The notes under the pieces: model-generated
Seen by the model: the letters and a program-made list of their open reading frames with translations, nothing else
Told to the model about the DNA's origin: nothing
The model's database searches: none
Assembly: GCA_947632085.1 (NCBI GenBank)
Contig: CANRNY010000004.1
Location: 1-64,000, forward strand
Direction: 5' to 3'
DNA: 64,000 bases
Source of the DNA: an uncultured Bacilli bacterium
Lineage (GTDB): Bacteria > Bacillota_I > Bacilli_A > RF39 > UBA660
Shown: one piece after another, positions 17,369 to 36,227 of the stretch
Layout: every line of letters starts with the position of its first letter
How positions within the stretch are numbered: the stretch's first letter is position 1
Translations under genes and position numbers: made by a program

Positions 17369-19246
17369 ATGGCTAAAAAAAAGAAAAGTAACAAAAGTAA
17401 CAAGAAGAAAAATTATTCAAACAAGTCTAAAAATTATTCTTCAAATTCTCAAAAAAAGAATTATTCCTCAAAGAATAATTCTAGTCAACCAAATAAAAAA
17501 AGTAATGTTTCTAACAATAATTCCCATAAACCAAAAGTAAATAATCCACCTAAGACTTCAACTTCTAAAAAAGTTGAAACTAATAAAACTGAAAATATTA
17601 ATAAAGAAGAGAATATTGAACTACAAGAAACAGCATCATTATCATTATCTCCATCAAATCATAAATTAAATAAAAAGATAATCCAGAAAATTCGTCATGA
17701 TTTACATAAAAATATTACGATAATTACGATATTAATAATTATTTTAATCTTATTAATGATTATTGTTTTTTATAATATTTTAAATGATCCATTTAAAAAG
17801 GAAATTAATGTTGAAATTGGTTCTAAACAAGTAACTATTTCTGACTTTTTTGACCGCAAAAATATAAAAAATAGTGAAATAGTTACAGATTTAGATACTA
17901 TTGATTTTAATAAACCAGGTGATTACAATATAGAAATTAAACATGGTAAAAAGATATATAAATCTGTAATGCATTTAGTTGATACTACCGCACCTAAAGT
18001 AGTCTTTAAAGATGTTGAAGCTTTCACTGATTATGAATTTAATCCTCGTGATTTTATTGAATCAATTGACGAATTAACTGATGTAACTGTTGAAGCTTTA
18101 GAAGAACCTAAAATAGATAAAATAGGTAACTACAAAGTAACAATCGTTGTTAAAGATTCTTCTAATAATGAAACTCGTGAAGAAAGAACTTTATTTATTG
18201 GCTTTATGGAAGCTACTCATCATTTAGAATTAGGTAATAAACTTACTAAAGAAGATATTCTATATGATGTTGATTATAAAGAATACATTAGTCAAAAAGA
18301 TTTAGATTATATCAATAAACAAGGTATAGGTGAGTATGAAATATCTGCTACGATAGATGATAAAACTTATACGACTAAAGTAATTGTTGAAGATACAAAA
18401 GGACCAGAGTTAACTTTAAAAAATGTTACAATATATAATGATAAAACTAATGGTTTATCTGTTAATTCATTTATCAAAAAAGTATCTGATTCATCTAAAT
18501 ACACCACAACTTTAAAATCTGATATTCCTTATGGTAAAGTAGGTAAACATCAAATAACTATTGAAGCTAAAGATGAATATAATAATGTTACTACTAAGAC
18601 AGCTACTTTATCAGTTGTTAAAGATACAACTGGTCCTACATTCTCTGGTTTAAGTGATATAACAATAAATAAAAATTCAACATATGATTATCGTAAAGGC
18701 GTTAAAGCTGTTGATGCCAAAGATGGTAAAGTTGATTTTTCAGTCAATACTAGTGCTCTAAAAGTTAACCAAGCCGGAGTTTATTATATATCTTATGTTG
18801 CCTTAGATAAATCTGGTAATAAAACTATTAAAAAACGTAAGATAAGTGTTAATCCTAGTCAATCAGATATCAATGATAAAGTTAAAAGTGTTGCTAAAAA
18901 AATAGGTAATAGTGTTAGAGATGTTAATAAATATGTTAATTCACATATGCATTATATAAATAATTGGGGTGGTAAATATCCAGTTTGGTATGGTTTAATT
19001 AATTGGAAAGGTAACTGCTATGTTTATGCTAATGTTTTAAAAGCTTTATTAGAAGCTAAAGGTTATAAAACTAAACTTATTTGGGTTAAAGATAAATCTC
19101 ATTATTGGGTTATGGTTTATGATGGTGGTAAATGGTGGCATAGTGATGCTCAATGTGATAATGGTTTAGCAAAAGGAACAGATGAAGATATGCTTATTTG
19201 TACAGGTGGTAGAGAATGGGATCGCGAAGCATGGCCCGAAGCTTAA
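17369..19246 (+). CDS. membrane-anchored surface protein with Ig-like repeats and a transglutaminase-like domain
   Basis: 625 residues. A Lys/Ser/Asn-rich cytosolic tail (1-100), one membrane segment (about 116-138), four Ig-like/DUF5011-type beta repeats (about 145-510, each ending in a phrase such as DTTAPKV, DTKGPEL or DTTGPTF), and a C-terminal transglutaminase-like domain (about 520-625). In the latter GNCYVYANVLKALLEAKGYKTK carries the Cys, SHYWVMVYDGGKWW the His and WHSDAQC the Asp of the usual triad. This is a type II membrane protein with its catalytic domain outside the cell. The strongly basic head may bind nucleic acid or membrane. Its end overlaps the MBOAT gene. Confidence 0.83.
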   Translation: MAKKKKSNKSNKKKNYSNKSKNYSSNSQKKNYSSKNNSSQPNKKSNVSNNNSHKPKVNNPPKTSTSKKVETNKTENINKEENIELQETASLSLSPSNHKLNKKIIQKIRHDLHKNITIITILIIILILLMIIVFYNILNDPFKKEINVEIGSKQVTISDFFDRKNIKNSEIVTDLDTIDFNKPGDYNIEIKHGKKIYKSVMHLVDTTAPKVVFKDVEAFTDYEFNPRDFIESIDELTDVTVEALEEPKIDKIGNYKVTIVVKDSSNNETREERTLFIGFMEATHHLELGNKLTKEDILYDVDYKEYISQKDLDYINKQGIGEYEISATIDDKTYTTKVIVEDTKGPELTLKNVTIYNDKTNGLSVNSFIKKVSDSSKYTTTLKSDIPYGKVGKHQITIEAKDEYNNVTTKTATLSVVKDTTGPTFSGLSDITINKNSTYDYRKGVKAVDAKDGKVDFSVNTSALKVNQAGVYYISYVALDKSGNKTIKKRKISVNPSQSDINDKVKSVAKKIGNSVRDVNKYVNSHMHYINNWGGKYPVWYGLINWKGNCYVYANVLKALLEAKGYKTKLIWVKDKSHYWVMVYDGGKWWHSDAQCDNGLAKGTDEDMLICTGGREWDREAWPEA

Positions 19247-20514
19247 TTATTGAAATAATATTCTTACTTATAAGTATTGCCATTTATGCCACCTATGGCC
19301 TTACTAACTTTATATTTATTCTCTTTAGTTTAATCTCTACTTATTTTGCTGCTAGACTACTTACTAAAAAGAAAAATAAATTAGTTTTATGGCTAACAAT
19401 CATTTTAAATGCCTTAATCTTTATCATCTTTAAGATAGGTCTAAGTAATTTAGGTCTTAATAACCTAAATATTTTAGCACCCCTTGGCATTGCTTATTAT
19501 ACATTACAAGTCATATCATACATTGTTGATGTATATAAAGATAAATATCCAGCTGAAAATAATTTTATAAAGTATGCTTTATATATCTTTTATTTTCCAT
19601 GCCTTTTAATCGGCCCAATTCATCGTTACAACGACTTTAAAGAAGCTTTCACTAAAAGAAAAATAACTCTTAACAACATCTTAAATGGTTTAATTAGAGT
19701 TTTATTTGGTTTATTTAAAAAATTCGTTATTGCTGGTCGTGCTTTTATTTTAATCAATTCTTTAAGTACATATAGTAGTGGAGGAGCTTATGCTCTTATG
19801 GCTATGTTAACATATTCCATTTTACTATACACTGATTTTAGTGGTGGTATAGATATTGTTTTAGGTTTCTCTAAAATCTTAGGCCTTAATTTAAAAGAAA
19901 ACTTTAATCGCCCATACTTTAGTGAAAGTATCAAAGAGTTTTGGAATAGATGGCACATGACATTAAGTAATTGGTTAAAAGATTATATCTATATTCCTTT
20001 AGGGGGAAATAAAAAAGGTAAGATAAGACAAAAAATAAATATAATGATTACATTCTTAGTATCTGGTTTTTGGCATGGTACTACCTATATATTATGGGGA
20101 ATATATCAAGGTATATTTGTAGCTTTTCCAAAACTATTTCGTACTAAAAATAAATATCTAAACACTATTATAACTATCTTATTAGTTTCAATTTCTTGGT
20201 CATTCTTTATCTATAATGATCCAATAGTATCTTTAAAAATGATTGGTAGTTTATTTACAACCTTTAACTATTCCAATCTCTTTAATAATCTTTTAAATCT
20301 TGGCTTAGACAAAATCAATTATCTCGTTTTAATTCTATCAACAATTGCTTTATTTGTTTATGAATCTAAGATGGATATAATTAATAAGAAAATAAAAAAA
20401 AGTAGTCTTGAAATTAAACTTATTATAACAGCTATATTAATTATTTTTGTAACTTTATATGGTATATATGGAATAGGTTTTAATGTCGAAGACTTCATAT
20501 ATAGCAAATTTTAA
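19216..20514 (+). CDS. MBOAT family membrane O-acyltransferase (DltB/AlgI-like)
   Basis: 432 residues with about ten hydrophobic segments. Signature blocks: FPCLLIGPIHRYNDF, YFSESIKEFWNRWHMTLSNWLKDYIYIPLGG and the catalytic-His region SGFWHGTTYILWGIYQG. MBOAT enzymes move acyl groups across the membrane for attachment to polysaccharide or teichoic acid. ATG at 19216 has AGGTGG six bases upstream and overlaps the previous gene by 31 bases; an in-frame ATG at 19231 is an alternative. No dltA/C is seen, so AlgI/PatA-type acetylation with the next gene as partner is more likely than D-alanylation. Confidence 0.88.
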   Translation: MGSRSMARSLIIEIIFLLISIAIYATYGLTNFIFILFSLISTYFAARLLTKKKNKLVLWLTIILNALIFIIFKIGLSNLGLNNLNILAPLGIAYYTLQVISYIVDVYKDKYPAENNFIKYALYIFYFPCLLIGPIHRYNDFKEAFTKRKITLNNILNGLIRVLFGLFKKFVIAGRAFILINSLSTYSSGGAYALMAMLTYSILLYTDFSGGIDIVLGFSKILGLNLKENFNRPYFSESIKEFWNRWHMTLSNWLKDYIYIPLGGNKKGKIRQKINIMITFLVSGFWHGTTYILWGIYQGIFVAFPKLFRTKNKYLNTIITILLVSISWSFFIYNDPIVSLKMIGSLFTTFNYSNLFNNLLNLGLDKINYLVLILSTIALFVYESKMDIINKKIKKSSLEIKLIITAILIIFVTLYGIYGIGFNVEDFIYSKF

Positions 20515-20523
20515 GGTGATAAT

Positions 20524-21531
20524 ATGAAAAGATTTATAAGAATAACTTTAATAATTGTTATATTTATCATTGTGTTCTTTGGCTTAGAACGTTTAGTAAC
20601 TCCTAAGTATCAAACGGATTTAGTTGAAGGTCATATGATTAAAGAGTATTATGATGAAGAAAAAAATCATGAAGTAATATTTCTTGGTGATTGTGAAGTT
20701 TATGCTAATATTTCTCCTATGGTCTTATATGAAGAAGAAGGTATTACTGCATATGTAAGAGGTAATAGTCAACAATTAATTTGGCAATCATATGGTCTCC
20801 TTAAAGAAACTTTAAAGTATGAAATACCTAAAGTAGTAGTTTTCAACGTTAATTCCTTACGTTATTCTAAACCAGTAAGTGAAGCTTATAATCGCTTAAT
20901 GTTAGATAACATGAAATGGAGTAAAGAAAAATACGAAATAATTAATGATTCAATGCTTGATAAAGAAAGTTTAATAACTTATATTTTTCCTATTTTTAGA
21001 TATCATTCTCGTATTACAGAATTAACTAAAGAAGATTTTCTTTACTACTTTAAAGACCAAAACGTTACTTTTAATGGTTTCTTAATCAATAAAAATGTCA
21101 AACCATATACTAGTTTTCCTACCAAAAGAAAATTAGCAACATATGAATTCTCTAAAGAAAACTACCATTATCTAGATTTAATACGTGAATTATGTGAAGA
21201 AAATGATATAAAACTTGTCTTAATGAAAGCACCTAGTATATATCCATATTGGTATGATGAATATGATCAAAATGTTATTAATTATGCCGATAAGTATAAT
21301 TTAGATTATTATAATTTTAAAAATGTCGTAAATGAAATCGGAATTGACTATGCAACTGATACCTATGATGGAGGAGAACATCTAAATTTAGCAGGAGCTA
21401 CAAAATTATCTAAGTATTTTGCTCCTATCTTAAAAGAAAAATATAACTTAACTGATTATCGAAATAATGATAAAATAAAAGAGATATATGATGAGAAATT
21501 AAATGAGTACAAGAAAGAGTGTGGTAAATAA
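20524..21531 (+). CDS. SGNH/DltD-like membrane-anchored acyltransferase partner
   Basis: 335 residues. N-terminal anchor (about 5-23); EVIFLGDCEVYANISP (about 51-66) occupies the place of the SGNH block I, with Asp-Cys where GDS is usual; VVVFNVNSLRYSK; and the C-terminal DGGEHLNLAGA (about 280-290) carries the DxxH-type element. Such proteins follow MBOAT genes (DltD, AlgJ/X, PatB) and complete acyl transfer outside the membrane. The Ser-to-Cys change in the nucleophile motif deserves checking. RBS AAGGTGAT, 9 bases after the MBOAT stop. Confidence 0.65.
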   Translation: MKRFIRITLIIVIFIIVFFGLERLVTPKYQTDLVEGHMIKEYYDEEKNHEVIFLGDCEVYANISPMVLYEEEGITAYVRGNSQQLIWQSYGLLKETLKYEIPKVVVFNVNSLRYSKPVSEAYNRLMLDNMKWSKEKYEIINDSMLDKESLITYIFPIFRYHSRITELTKEDFLYYFKDQNVTFNGFLINKNVKPYTSFPTKRKLATYEFSKENYHYLDLIRELCEENDIKLVLMKAPSIYPYWYDEYDQNVINYADKYNLDYYNFKNVVNEIGIDYATDTYDGGEHLNLAGATKLSKYFAPILKEKYNLTDYRNNDKIKEIYDEKLNEYKKECGK

Positions 21532-22031
21532 TGAAAAAGATAATTCCAATTTTACTGTTAATAACTATTGTGTTCTTAACAGCATCATGTGGTAATAAAG
21601 AAACAAAAGATGATAATAACGAAAAAAATATGCCAGAATCAACATATTCACTAAAGACTGATGAAAGAACAATCGATTTAAATACTGAATTTACAAAAGA
21701 TACATATGGTGAACCACTAGATTACTCTGAAACAGCTAGTTGTGCCTTTGAAGGTTTAGATAAAACTTATACTTATGAACAATACGAAATAACAACTTAT
21801 CCTAAAGATGATAAAGAATACATCTACTCAATTTTATTATTAGATCCTAATGTTAAAACAACTGAAGGAGTAGCTATTGATGATAGTAAAGATAAAATGA
21901 TTGAAGTATATGGTGAAGATTATCAAGAAGAAGAGGGCAATTATACTTATACGAAAGGTAAAACTTCAATAGTATTTGTTATTCAAGACGATAAAATAAT
22001 AAGTATCGAATATTTATATATAACAGAATAA
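21531..22031 (+). CDS. lipoprotein of unknown function
   Basis: 166 residues. A lipoprotein signal peptide ends in the lipobox LTASC (Cys about 20), followed by an Asp/Lys/Asn-rich linker and an acidic domain with YGEPLDYSETASCAFEG and a second half ending SIEYLYITE. The start overlaps the stop of the SGNH-like gene by one base, so it belongs to the acyltransferase operon and would be anchored at the outer face of the membrane. Family not recognised. Confidence 0.75.
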   Translation: MKKIIPILLLITIVFLTASCGNKETKDDNNEKNMPESTYSLKTDERTIDLNTEFTKDTYGEPLDYSETASCAFEGLDKTYTYEQYEITTYPKDDKEYIYSILLLDPNVKTTEGVAIDDSKDKMIEVYGEDYQEEEGNYTYTKGKTSIVFVIQDDKIISIEYLYITE

Positions 22032-26741: not shown

Positions 26742-26760
26742 AACAATAACTCTTTTTATT
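26724..26760. terminator. bidirectional terminator between convergent genes
   Basis: AGTTATTGT-CCTAAA-ACAATAACT, a perfect 9-bp stem with A-run before and T-run after, at the ends of the convergent genes at 26259 (+) and 26756 (-). Confidence 0.85.
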
Positions 26761-28189
26761 TATGTACTAATACTAAAGTACCTTTATCAACATTATCAAA
26801 TACTTCTGGAGTAATTTCTGGTGGCATATTAATACAACCATGACTACCACCTGTATGGTAATAATCTACATCTCCAAAATGTCCATGTTGCCATTCTGCA
26901 TCATGAATACCTTCACCACCATTATATGGTCCAAAATAATTAACATAAGTTCTATAACCAGGACCAACTAAGTAAGTTTGTTTCTTTATCATATTAATTG
27001 TAAATAATCCTTCATCTGATGGTGTACTATCTTTACCTGATACGATATCAGTAGTTAAAATAACTTTACCATCACTAATTATTTCTAATTGTTGTAAGCT
27101 TAAATCAATATTAATTACTTTACCATCAATAACTTTACAATCACTCTTATTTATATATCCGTAATCATCACCAAGACTAACTAAATATCTAGTTTCATCT
27201 TCTGAATAAACTTTTCCACCTTCGTATTTAGAAACAACACGTTTTTGAAATCCATCCCCATCATATAAATAGGTATCATTTTGTAAATAAACAAAACGAT
27301 AAAAATCACCAAATAACATATAAGTTTCATTTACATAATCGCCAGATACATATCCATCTTTACCATTATAATCAATATGATACCAACCATTACTACATTT
27401 TTCTATTACTTTATATTTCCTATTACCACTTATTTGTCCAATCTTATTATAATCAGTACTATTACCATCTCTAACATTTAATACAGTAGTTGGTTCAATC
27501 GCAAGTTCAGCTTGTGGAATAACACTATATATAACATTATTAGCTTCATCATAATTAACATCTAATAATTGAATATAATCACCTGAAACAAAGCCAACTA
27601 TACCATTGTAATTTATTAAATACCAATTATCACTTGTTCTTCCGTATATACTTACTGTTGTTCCATTTCTCATCGTCTCTAATTTATCATAAGATGTACC
27701 AGGACCTTTTCTAATATTAAGTTCTGTTAAAGTAACTGCACGACCACAAATACCTACAATCTGAAAGTCTTGATTAAATGCTTTTATATCATTTACATTA
27801 CCTTCAAGTATATATCCATAATTATTAATTAGTGATACCTCTTTACTTAAATTTACTATATTTTCAGTAAATGTTACTTCTCCTTGGCCAACAACATAAC
27901 CAGGATTTTGTTCTGGATAAGTATAACCCATATTTTGACTACTTATCGTTTCTTGACTCTGTACTTCTGTTCCATCAACTACTTGAATAGTATCTTCAAT
28001 GATTAAATCATCATCTTCTTTAGCTGAAACTACATCATCCTGTTGAATTAAAGGAAATCTTGTTGTTGCGGATGTCTTACCAGTTGTCTTTATTAATCCG
28101 ACAGTTGATGAAATAACAAGTACAATATTTCCTGCGATAAACAATTTAAAAAGTTTATCTTTAAATTTTAAATTTTTCAAAAAAATCAC
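26756..28189 (-). CDS. L,D-transpeptidase (YkuD) with SH3-like domains
   Basis: 477 residues. N-terminal membrane anchor (about 13-32), an acidic linker, two bacterial SH3 domains (about 148-206, with LNIRKGPGTSYDKL, and 232-292, with LNVRDGNSTDYNKI), and a C-terminal YkuD catalytic domain (about 360-477) with GGEGIHDAEW and GSHGCINMP containing the catalytic His and Cys. YkuD enzymes make 3-3 cross-links in peptidoglycan or attach proteins to it; SH3 domains bind the wall. Located outside the membrane. Divergent from truB. Confidence 0.92.
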   Translation of the reverse strand: MIFLKNLKFKDKLFKLFIAGNIVLVISSTVGLIKTTGKTSATTRFPLIQQDDVVSAKEDDDLIIEDTIQVVDGTEVQSQETISSQNMGYTYPEQNPGYVVGQGEVTFTENIVNLSKEVSLINNYGYILEGNVNDIKAFNQDFQIVGICGRAVTLTELNIRKGPGTSYDKLETMRNGTTVSIYGRTSDNWYLINYNGIVGFVSGDYIQLLDVNYDEANNVIYSVIPQAELAIEPTTVLNVRDGNSTDYNKIGQISGNRKYKVIEKCSNGWYHIDYNGKDGYVSGDYVNETYMLFGDFYRFVYLQNDTYLYDGDGFQKRVVSKYEGGKVYSEDETRYLVSLGDDYGYINKSDCKVIDGKVINIDLSLQQLEIISDGKVILTTDIVSGKDSTPSDEGLFTINMIKKQTYLVGPGYRTYVNYFGPYNGGEGIHDAEWQHGHFGDVDYYHTGGSHGCINMPPEITPEVFDNVDKGTLVLVHK

Positions 28190-35087: not shown

Positions 35088-36227
35088 TTAAATATATCCA
35101 TGAACTACTTTTTTGTAAATTTCCCAAAACATACTTCCAAAATTATGTTTTTCAATATCTTCATTAATAACTAAATCAACTATCTTAATAACTTTACCAG
35201 TATTATCAACGACTTCTAAATTTCCTACGACATCACCCTTATTAACTGGTGCTACAACTTTATATTTCTCTATATTATAAGAATAACTTTTCTTTTCGTT
35301 TTGTGCTATTAAATCTGTAACATCTTCTCTAACTGAGTAAGTCCCTTTACTTTGTTTACCTTTTTTGATGGCAATTTCACCTAAAACATCATTAGTCTTT
35401 AAAATCGTATTAAGTTTATAATTAGTAAAACCATAATTTAACATACTTGTCGTATCAACACTACGATGTTCAGAAGTATCAACGCCCATTGTTACTGTAA
35501 TAAATCTAATATTATTTTTTAAAGCTGTTGCAGTTAAACAATATAATGCTGTTTTTGTATATCCCGTTTTTAATCCATCAACTCCTGGATAAAAGCGTAC
35601 TAATTTATTTGTATTTACTAACCAAGTCTTAGTTCCATCTGGCTTTTCTAAATAATCTTCATATAGTGAAGTATAATTTAAAATATCTTTATGTTTTAAT
35701 AATTCTCTAGCAATTTGACTCATATCATAAGCAGAAGAGTAATGATTTTCGGTATCAAGTCCATGAACATTTGCAAAATGCGTATTTTTAAGTCCTAATT
35801 CATTAACTTTATTATTCATTAATTTTACAAATTCTTCTGTACTACCAGCGATATGTTCGGCCATTGCAACAGCTGCATCATTCCCACTAGCAATCGCAAT
35901 TCCTTTAAGTAACTGTCTAACTGATATCTGCATATTTTCTTGTAAAAACACCTGACTTCCACCCATATTAGCGGCATTTTTACTTATAGTTACCATATCA
36001 TCAAGTTTTATTTTCCCATCATCAATATTTTCCATAATAATTAACATCGTCATCATTTTGGTCATCGAAGCTGGCGCTAATCTTTCATCTTTATTGTATT
36101 CATAAATAATTTTATTAGTAGTAGGTTCAATCATTATACTTGCTTTACTATATTGTGTTAAAGAAAGTGCATTTACGCATTTAAAGGCGATAAATACGCT
36201 TCCTAAAATGAATAAAATTTTTTTCAT
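35088..36227 (-). CDS. D-alanyl-D-alanine carboxypeptidase (peptidase S11)
   Basis: 379 residues. Signal peptide (1-20), catalytic domain with SMTK (SxxK nucleophile, about 54-57), SGN (about 117-119, in AIASGNDAA) and KTG (about 219-221, in DGLKTGYTKTA), and a C-terminal beta domain (about 275-360) ending in an amphipathic helix that tethers it to the membrane. It removes the terminal D-Ala from peptidoglycan pentapeptides, controlling cross-linking. DacF-type sporulation members look alike, and this one could act in vegetative or spore wall trimming. Flanked by two paralogous surface proteins. Confidence 0.93.
   Translation of the reverse strand: MKKILFILGSVFIAFKCVNALSLTQYSKASIMIEPTTNKIIYEYNKDERLAPASMTKMMTMLIIMENIDDGKIKLDDMVTISKNAANMGGSQVFLQENMQISVRQLLKGIAIASGNDAAVAMAEHIAGSTEEFVKLMNNKVNELGLKNTHFANVHGLDTENHYSSAYDMSQIARELLKHKDILNYTSLYEDYLEKPDGTKTWLVNTNKLVRFYPGVDGLKTGYTKTALYCLTATALKNNIRFITVTMGVDTSEHRSVDTTSMLNYGFTNYKLNTILKTNDVLGEIAIKKGKQSKGTYSVREDVTDLIAQNEKKSYSYNIEKYKVVAPVNKGDVVGNLEVVDNTGKVIKIVDLVINEDIEKHNFGSMFWEIYKKVVHGYI

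Follow-up and report, generated by a model that had tools for sequence, protein, structure and literature searches.

The closest described systems are PatA/PatB and Dlt (DltA-D and DltX). In PatA/PatB, an MBOAT that ends in an FxYxxF motif is paired with an SGNH partner anchored outside; the available text of PMC12148441 assigns an acyl-shuttle role to the C-terminal motif. Both PatA/PatB and Dlt act through a Ser ester. A third point of comparison is TesA, the SGNH thioesterase of E. coli, a soluble hydrolase whose triad is Ser10-Asp154-His157 (available text of PMC3524773). The window analysed here, a stretch of 64,000 nucleotides from an uncultured Bacilli bacterium, encodes an operon that resembles PatA/PatB in its MBOAT and its anchored partner but has Cys in place of Ser and a gene set of Gram-positive type that includes a transglutaminase-like protein (TG) and a small lipoprotein (LP). 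We consider it somewhat probable that this operon encodes an MBOAT-SGNH system for exported acyl transfer, with an extracellular transferase that works through a Cys thioester.

Organization of the operon

The operon comprises four genes on the plus strand: TG (17369-19246; 625 amino acids; assigned by Pfam), MBOAT (19216-20514; 432 amino acids; PF03062, 113 bits against a cut-off of 27), the SGNH-fold protein (20524-21531; 335 amino acids) and LP (21531-22031; 166 amino acids), the last two assigned from structure models and their fold matches. The MBOAT gene overlaps the TG gene by 31 bases and is separated from the SGNH gene by 9 bases, and the LP and SGNH genes share a single base, the final one of the latter, so that the open reading frames overlap or nearly touch as an earlier note on this DNA had described.

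The SGNH-fold protein carries Cys at the nucleophile position

The model of the SGNH protein (pLDDT 92.6) shows an N-terminal helix followed by an SGNH fold. Cys57, within a GDC motif (codon 20692-20694, plus strand), lies at the nucleophile turn, and Asp282 and His286 occupy the usual C-terminal loop (block V, 21367-21381, plus strand). The earlier note had pointed to GDC where GDS is usual and proposed a structural check of the Cys; the substitution is real, and in the predicted structure the nucleophile position is occupied by this Cys, which is residue 57 rather than 58. Cys57 is present in 81/81 alignment rows (one of the two search patterns used to find relatives covers the residues immediately preceding it), Asp282 in 81/81 and His286 in 80/81. 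Among sequences of at least 290 amino acids with duplicates dropped, all 83 clade members examined have Cys and all 46 other homologues have Ser, and the SGNH tree contains a single Ser/Cys change with support of 100 (81 of 129 rows). His286 is found in 128 of the 129 sequences of both groups together; one Cys-type sequence (L108) is without it. Asp282 and His286 are spaced as DxxxH where DxxH is usual, and with Asp279 invariant as well, the identity of the acid residue is uncertain. Gly80 and Asn108, present in the Cys clade and rare in the Ser group, lie near the places of SGNH oxyanion residues and by analogy may serve in those roles. Of the two roles that the earlier note had offered, catalysis by Cys or a non-catalytic carrier, the first is favoured by the conservation of His286 and Asp282 and by the presence of Gly80 and Asn108 in the clade. 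With the triad partners conserved, a carrier role is not our first choice.

Sequence comparison alone places the protein poorly: Lipase_GDSL_2 (PF13472) scores 16.7 bits, under its cut-off of 32.9, and a sequence search of solved structures returned one chance match (E 0.92). Foldseek and VIA comparisons of the model point to TesA, PatB and DltD. TesA (1ivn) aligns with Z 13.5 and rmsd 2.9 over 165 residues, and its triad falls on Cys57 and His286, as judged by the ends of the aligned ranges; unlike the window protein, it has Ser and DxxH spacing and is soluble. PatB (7trr) aligns with Z 12.1 and rmsd 4.5 over 179 residues. The top VIA match is a designed scaffold (9hi5_A, Z 13.8). DltD appears in the Foldseek list (6pfx_B, E 1.4e-3) and is absent among the 50 VIA matches listed.

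The open-licence PMC literature yielded no match for an SGNH protein with nucleophilic Cys, alone or with an MBOAT, and among the matches listed for GDSL and cysteine no paper contained 'GDSL'. The catalytic cysteine in the available text of PMC3524773 belongs to plant thioesterases, and that of an SGNH review (PMC9487903) mentions cysteines as disulfides only. The same literature gave no match for an MBOAT and transglutaminase operon tied to peptidoglycan; among the matches listed for an MBOAT/transglutaminase/lipoprotein/SGNH operon, none described one by its title or the start of its abstract. Bacillus lipoprotein N-acetylation, which in the available text of PMC12345273 involves a prenylglyceryl carrier, is a different system.

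The MBOAT ends in a shuttle-like motif

The genome of the window has one MBOAT that was found. Its presumed catalytic residue, His287 (codon 20074-20076, plus strand), is present in 76/77 rows, the remaining row being a gap. The protein ends in FIYSKF (20494-20511, plus strand), which resembles the acyl-shuttle motif and contains Tyr429 (76/77). All 72 full-length MBOAT partners of Cys-type SGNH proteins end in such a motif when F, I or L is allowed as the last residue. The locus therefore has the MBOAT domain with its presumed catalytic His, the Tyr-containing FxYxxF motif and, across the 9-base gap, an adjacent SGNH-fold partner that the model shows as membrane-anchored, with Cys instead of the Ser nucleophile of an MBOAT-SGNH pair. 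The nearest model is that of DltB, a likeness to Dlt that stays under the cut-off (174.8 bits against 375), and no DltD (PF04914) was among the Pfam matches up to E 0.1, which places the pair outside the DltB equivalog and DltD families. It also differs from Dlt in that the shuttle motif is fused to the MBOAT, Cys replaces Ser, and no carrier was found in the genome.

Conservation and co-occurrence

We examined the loci of the best 80 of 303 relatives, six of which are the same six other family members that were aligned separately and add no extra cases. Counting the best HMM match for each gene on the plus strand within 7 kb of the SGNH gene, MBOAT and LP were each present in 76/80 loci and TG, with its transglutaminase-like domain, in 73/80; minus-strand LP tags in L115 and L120 were counted as missing, and coordinates indicate that contig ends may explain the absence of TG from L051, L066, L091 and L127 and of LP from L096. 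Gaps are shorter than 200 bp in 74 of the 76 MBOAT-SGNH pairs and in 66 of the 76 SGNH-LP pairs. The operon is thus kept in most of the loci, a point on which the earlier note had made its reading depend; neither this check nor the structural one went against that reading. Where MBOAT is absent from the cluster in L093, L095, L105 and L106, it is encoded elsewhere in the genome. The same is true of TG in L107, whose cluster is without it, and in L060 and L092, where unknown proteins occupy its place. The hosts are mostly gut bacteria, uncultured.

Across the 385 genomes of the order the operon is patchy: a Cys-type SGNH occurs in 20, accompanied by LP in 20/20 and TG in 19/20. In two further genomes (G214 and G412), TG and LP occur and no Cys-SGNH was found, indicating that the two proteins can exist apart from it. 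The invariance of Cys57, the conservation of the operon and the co-occurrence at the level of genomes show that the operon is more than chance.

These patterns bear on the strongest alternative, in which the SGNH protein is an ordinary PatB-like O-acetyltransferase, the change from Ser to Cys is functionally neutral, and the surface genes TG and LP have no relation to it beyond being kept together in an accessory island. The fold and the MBOAT pairing are the same as in Ser-type relatives, the patchy distribution fits an island, and some other thioesterases stay active after Ser/Cys exchange (available text of PMC3524773). However, a neutral change sits poorly with a Cys that is fixed throughout the clade in the company of Gly80 and Asn108, and TG and LP track the Cys-SGNH across genomes even where TG is unlinked. 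We regard this explanation as unlikely.

LP has an invariant Cys of its own

In the LP model (pLDDT 84.6), two tandem units each consist of a helix and four strands. Cys71 (codon 21741-21743, plus strand; 77/77 rows) lies in a hairpin loop, SCAFEG, between strands 64-69 and 76-81. LP is found in 0/27 Ser-type loci, these controls having been hand-picked from search matches (29 listed, two of them Cys-type). It has no Pfam match, its 12 NCBIfam matches are all under cut-off, and its best Foldseek E-value is 2.6e-3. The fold resembles YjgB (DUF4309; 4ygt; Z 10.0, rmsd 2.7, 112 aligned, 14% identity) and the N-terminal domain of 4ifa, an SCP-domain protein (Z 11.5, rmsd 2.5, 113 aligned, 10% identity); LP differs from both by an invariant Cys-Ala loop of its own and by the lack of a Pfam match.

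The invariance of Cys71, together with the presence of one Cys after residue 27 of LP in 68/76 loci, would suit a Cys-SGNH that is a pseudoenzyme or a redox or docking partner, with a disulfide between Cys57 and Cys71 or regulation of Cys57 by oxidation, and a thioredoxin-like gene adjoins four loci (neighbour clusters counted by BLAST within 5 kb). Yet His286 and Asp282 are kept, as is the MBOAT shuttle motif, none of which would be required by a pseudoenzyme. Judged by record titles, most hosts are gut bacteria, presumably anaerobes, in which extracellular disulfides are less expected. This explanation appears improbable.

TG retains a presumed catalytic triad

TG has an N-terminal membrane helix at about residues 111-138, as read from the sequence, followed by Ig-like repeats (Bact_surface_Ig-like, 50.9 bits, cut-off 27) and a C-terminal transglutaminase-like domain (Transglut_core, PF01841, 35.5 bits, cut-off 23; residues 508-594, bases 18890-19151, plus strand). 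The presumed triad of this superfamily, Cys550-His578-Asp593, is conserved in 73/74, 74/74 and 74/74 rows, respectively (Cys550 codon 19016-19018, plus strand). The basic Lys/Ser/Asn tail that the earlier note described exists as a stretch, but it is N-terminal and precedes the membrane helix, a position that would make it cytoplasmic. A comparable stretch occurs only in L034 among seven family members aligned, which lends no support to a meaning for it. That TG subsequently cross-links an acylated surface polymer, as was also proposed, has a poor chance of being right: TG has its triad and Ig-like repeats and is tightly linked and co-occurring, but the superfamily includes peptidases and amidases too, no result here points to cross-linking, and we rejected the Lys-rich stretch as its substrate given the putative cytoplasmic location and lack of conservation.

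Donor genes vary while Cys-SGNH and LP are constant

The donor genes beside Cys-type systems differ from locus to locus: none, FkbH with a carrier, or a racemase with an adenylation protein and a carrier. The tree of 57 MBOATs indicates partner swapping. Across both kinds of variation Cys-SGNH and LP are constant and TG is nearly always present. As in Dlt, an adenylation protein resembling DltA is encoded together with a carrier in G739 and G674, although these adenylation proteins score under the DltA cut-offs of 476 and 559.85. A search for FkbH with MBOAT in the open-licence PMC literature led to cyanobacterial literature. In the window's own genome, which is 94% complete, no PF00550 carrier was matched up to E 0.1; of 14 control genomes searched in this way, 11 gave a match to the family. 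D-alanylation is therefore not favoured in this organism, with the reservation that absence from an incomplete genome is no proof.

Proposed mechanism

In the thioester mechanism that we prefer, the MBOAT would be supplied with a small acyl group by a donor in the cytoplasm. In this genome, where the search for a PP-binding carrier was negative, the donor is more likely acyl-CoA. By comparison with PatA and DltX, the acyl group would be loaded on the Tyr of the MBOAT's own FIYSKF motif. It may then move to Cys57, which lies at the nucleophile position in the model, probably with aid from His286 and an Asp, and the thioester would be passed to a cell-surface acceptor. The acceptor is probably a wall component, because M15-type peptidase genes adjoin 23/80 Cys-type loci and 0/27 Ser-type loci, a comparison that uses a profile built from Cys-locus proteins and so favours finds at Cys loci. 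In the window, no M15-type gene lies near the operon; the best match (25 bits) is 4.7 kb away. Their conservation and co-occurrence suggest LP and TG as acceptor-side partners. The choice of acyl group would fall to interchangeable donor cassettes, against a background of Cys-SGNH, LP and nearly always TG that does not change.

It is tempting to extend these steps to a relay from MBOAT Tyr to SGNH Cys57, LP Cys71, TG Cys550 and finally a wall amine. LP would act as an extracellular acyl carrier, TG would ligate the acyl group to the amine, and the cassettes (CoA, FkbH-carrier or racemase/adenylation-carrier) would decide the cargo. We consider this joint reading doubtful.

MBOAT-SGNH systems shape the chemistry of the bacterial envelope. 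A clade with a fixed Cys, two exported partners that keep their own Cys and an exchangeable acyl-loading front end would extend their mechanism to extracellular thioester chemistry, which would make amides plausible as products besides esters. Two protein families without an over-cut-off Pfam or NCBIfam model would thereby gain a role, open to testing, in bacteria that are uncultured and live mostly in the gut.

Organization of the operon

The four genes of the operon, all on the plus strand at 17369–22031, overlap or nearly touch, as the earlier note had claimed. The first encodes a 625-amino acid protein (TG) that combines a membrane helix near residues 111–138, as judged from the sequence, with Ig-like repeats and, at the C terminus, a transglutaminase-like domain. 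It is followed by a 432-amino acid MBOAT acyltransferase that ends in FIYSKF, a 335-amino acid SGNH-like protein with an N-terminal helix (residues 2–25 in our model) and GDC at residues 55–57, and, as the last gene, a 166-amino acid lipoprotein (LP). The closest NCBIfam model for the MBOAT is DltB (174.8 bits, below the cut-off of 375), and this is the sole MBOAT found in the genome.

Position of Cys57 in the SGNH fold

The structure model of the SGNH-like protein, built from 81 aligned sequences, has a mean pLDDT of 92.6. Strand 51–55 of the model leads into helix 57–62 and thus places Cys57 at the usual nucleophile turn, the location that the earlier note had proposed checking; the loop preceding helix 289–307 contains Asp282 and His286. 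The structural matches are SGNH enzymes, including the E. coli thioesterase TesA (1ivn; Z 13.5, RMSD 2.9, 165 aligned), PatB (7trr; Z 12.1, RMSD 4.5, 179 aligned), and, in the Foldseek search, DltD. If the ends of the aligned ranges (model 48–308, TesA 1–179) are gap-free, Cys57 corresponds to TesA Ser10 and His286 to His157, both of which an excerpt of PMC3524773 assigns to the TesA triad. The Asp of the SGNH-like protein is one residue farther from the His than in TesA. Placement of a Cys in the SGNH nucleophile position is well supported.

Conservation of residues and gene order

SGNH matches occur in 29 of 193 genomes of the window's family, seven at 64–100% identity and the remaining rows at 26–36%. 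All seven close members have GDCE, the MBOAT before, the LP after, and the TG within the cluster. A scan of species genomes yielded 303 relatives, the best 80 of which we read. By record titles, their hosts are Bacilli, Clostridia, Lachnospiraceae, Oscillospiraceae, Tenericutes, and Mollicutes, and many of the records are gut MAGs. Across these 80 and the window, Cys57 and Asp282 are invariant (81/81 each) and His286 is present in 80/81, the exception being Tyr in locus L108. In the same loci, LP Cys71 and Ala72 are found in 77/77 rows, 68 of 76 LPs have a single Cys after residue 27, and the counts for the TG triad are C550 73/74, H578 74/74, and D593 74/74. The gene order queried by the earlier note is also conserved: an MBOAT is present within 7 kb of the SGNH gene in 76 of these best 80 loci, a TG in 73, and an LP in 76. 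In L093, L095, L105, and L106 the cluster lacks an MBOAT, which is encoded elsewhere in each genome; the genomes of L060, L092, and L107 encode the TG at unlinked sites. Proteins of 532–627 amino acids with no Pfam match to E 0.01 occupy the usual TG place in L060 (2901–6594) and L092 (240–2111).

Among 385 genomes of the order, the Cys-type SGNH is found in 20, with bimodal scores (at least 432 bits, the next 196), TG in 22 (>400 bits), and LP in 24, spread over 13 of 118 genera; nine further TG matches (<200 bits) span the Ig part only. The SGNH co-occurs with LP in 20/20 and with TG in 19/20 genomes, and TG with LP in 22/22 (Fisher values below 1e-27, kinship ignored). In G244, TG was not found above 19 bits, which may reflect a gap because its SGNH contig agrees with L091 in length and coordinates, and the L091 contig ends just before the carrier gene. 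No SGNH relative was found in G214 or G412. TG and LP adjoin there without MBOAT or SGNH genes (L184, 123–2311; L185, 5541–7637), and an MBOAT lies elsewhere, beside another gene type. The G315 sequence stops within the MBOAT. G085, which has neither a Cys-type SGNH nor TG, encodes an LP homologue without the SCAF loop. In a draw of 392 genomes from the phylum, three exceed 430 bits for the Cys-type SGNH: the window's own, G739, and G674.

Of 48 other aligned homologues, two (from G739 and G674) belong to the Cys clade; the other 46 have Ser at the Cys57 column. One change separates Cys from Ser on the tree (support 100; 81 of 129 rows). Gly80 is found in 81/81 Cys-clade members, compared with Ala 25, Ser 11, and Gly 9 among the other 48, and Asn108 in 79/81, compared with Glu 23 and Asp 21. 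LP is absent from all 27 Ser-type loci, and one has a TG-like match (39 bits). Two Ser-type clusters combine one MBOAT with several SGNH genes, three in L043 (6956–12002) and two in L162 (6281–8399), with FkbH and carrier genes beside them.

Presumed genes for the acyl donor

Few of the best 80 loci have carrier genes nearby (FkbH 2, carrier 3), and most have none. In G021 (L033, 5104–7117; contig shared with L069), TG and MBOAT are separated by genes for FkbH (256.6 bits, cut-off 146.65) and for an acyl carrier (25.2 bits, cut-off 20.8). FkbH also precedes the MBOAT in L066 (270–2726) and, by resemblance only, in L186 (2150–4538), both with an intervening small gene that we take to be of VOC/epimerase type; a carrier gene precedes it in L091. 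An FkbH-like gene, likewise assigned by resemblance, is present in G315.

A Dlt-like set is present in G739 (L152, 7164–13532): TG, amino-acid racemase (TIGR00035, 196.1 bits, cut-off 93.1), adenylation protein (PF00501, 197.5 bits, cut-off 29.9; DltA models below cut-off), carrier (21.1 bits, cut-off 20.8), MBOAT, Cys-SGNH, and LP. The set recurs in G674 (L153, 2620–8299), with no TG in the stretch read; the best TG match of that genome (71.8 bits) is on another contig. Because racemase, adenylation protein, and carrier feed Cys-SGNH and LP, these sets suggest that the acyl group is a D-amino acid. On the tree of MBOATs, the three that accompany both FkbH and a Cys-SGNH nest with MBOATs from Ser-type FkbH loci (support 99), 24 plain MBOATs form one clade (support 100), and the two adenylation-linked ones are separate; the donor half has therefore been swapped, with Cys-SGNH and LP retained. 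Searched to E 0.1, the window's own genome (94% complete) yielded no PF00550 carrier, whereas one is present in 11 of 14 control genomes; an acyl-CoA donor is thus likelier for the window's operon.

Possible link to the cell wall and proposed mechanism

A neighboring family matches the Pfam M15 D-Ala-D-Ala peptidase profile in two members (33.9 and 47.3 bits, cut-off 27); a third scores 25.8 bits, and the SH3 match of the family is below cut-off. A gene of this family lies within 3 kb of 23/80 Cys loci and 0/27 Ser loci (Fisher 0.0005, kinship ignored and the profile built from Cys loci). Two PBP5-type carboxypeptidase genes lie near the TG-LP pair of G412, one adjoining TG. Within the window, no M15-type gene is near the operon; two minus-strand ORFs presumably encode an SH3 and L,D-transpeptidase protein (26756–28189) and a PBP5-type carboxypeptidase (35088–36227). 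The M15 neighbors point to peptidoglycan peptides, without proving the link.

In PatA/PatB, according to an excerpt of PMC12148441, the MBOAT auto-acetylates the Tyr of a C-terminal motif, from which the SGNH protein takes the acyl group. By analogy, the acyl group would pass from the donor to MBOAT Tyr429 and then to SGNH Cys57. Because amines react more readily with a thioester than with an ester, the product could be an amide. In the LP model, Cys71 is located in a hairpin loop between strands 64–69 and 76–81. The three exported partners, each with a Cys kept in all rows or all but one, could allow a relay, the most speculative of these readings. At a distance of about 0.1 kb, the operon is flanked by what we take to be a thioredoxin-like gene (WCGPCK) in L056, L068, L078, and L085, where it is encoded on the opposite strand, and in L153 (8410–8715), where it is downstream of LP. 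We found no description of a Cys-type MBOAT-SGNH variant in the open-licence PMC literature searched. The operon appears to be a real, conserved variant of MBOAT-SGNH acyl transfer.
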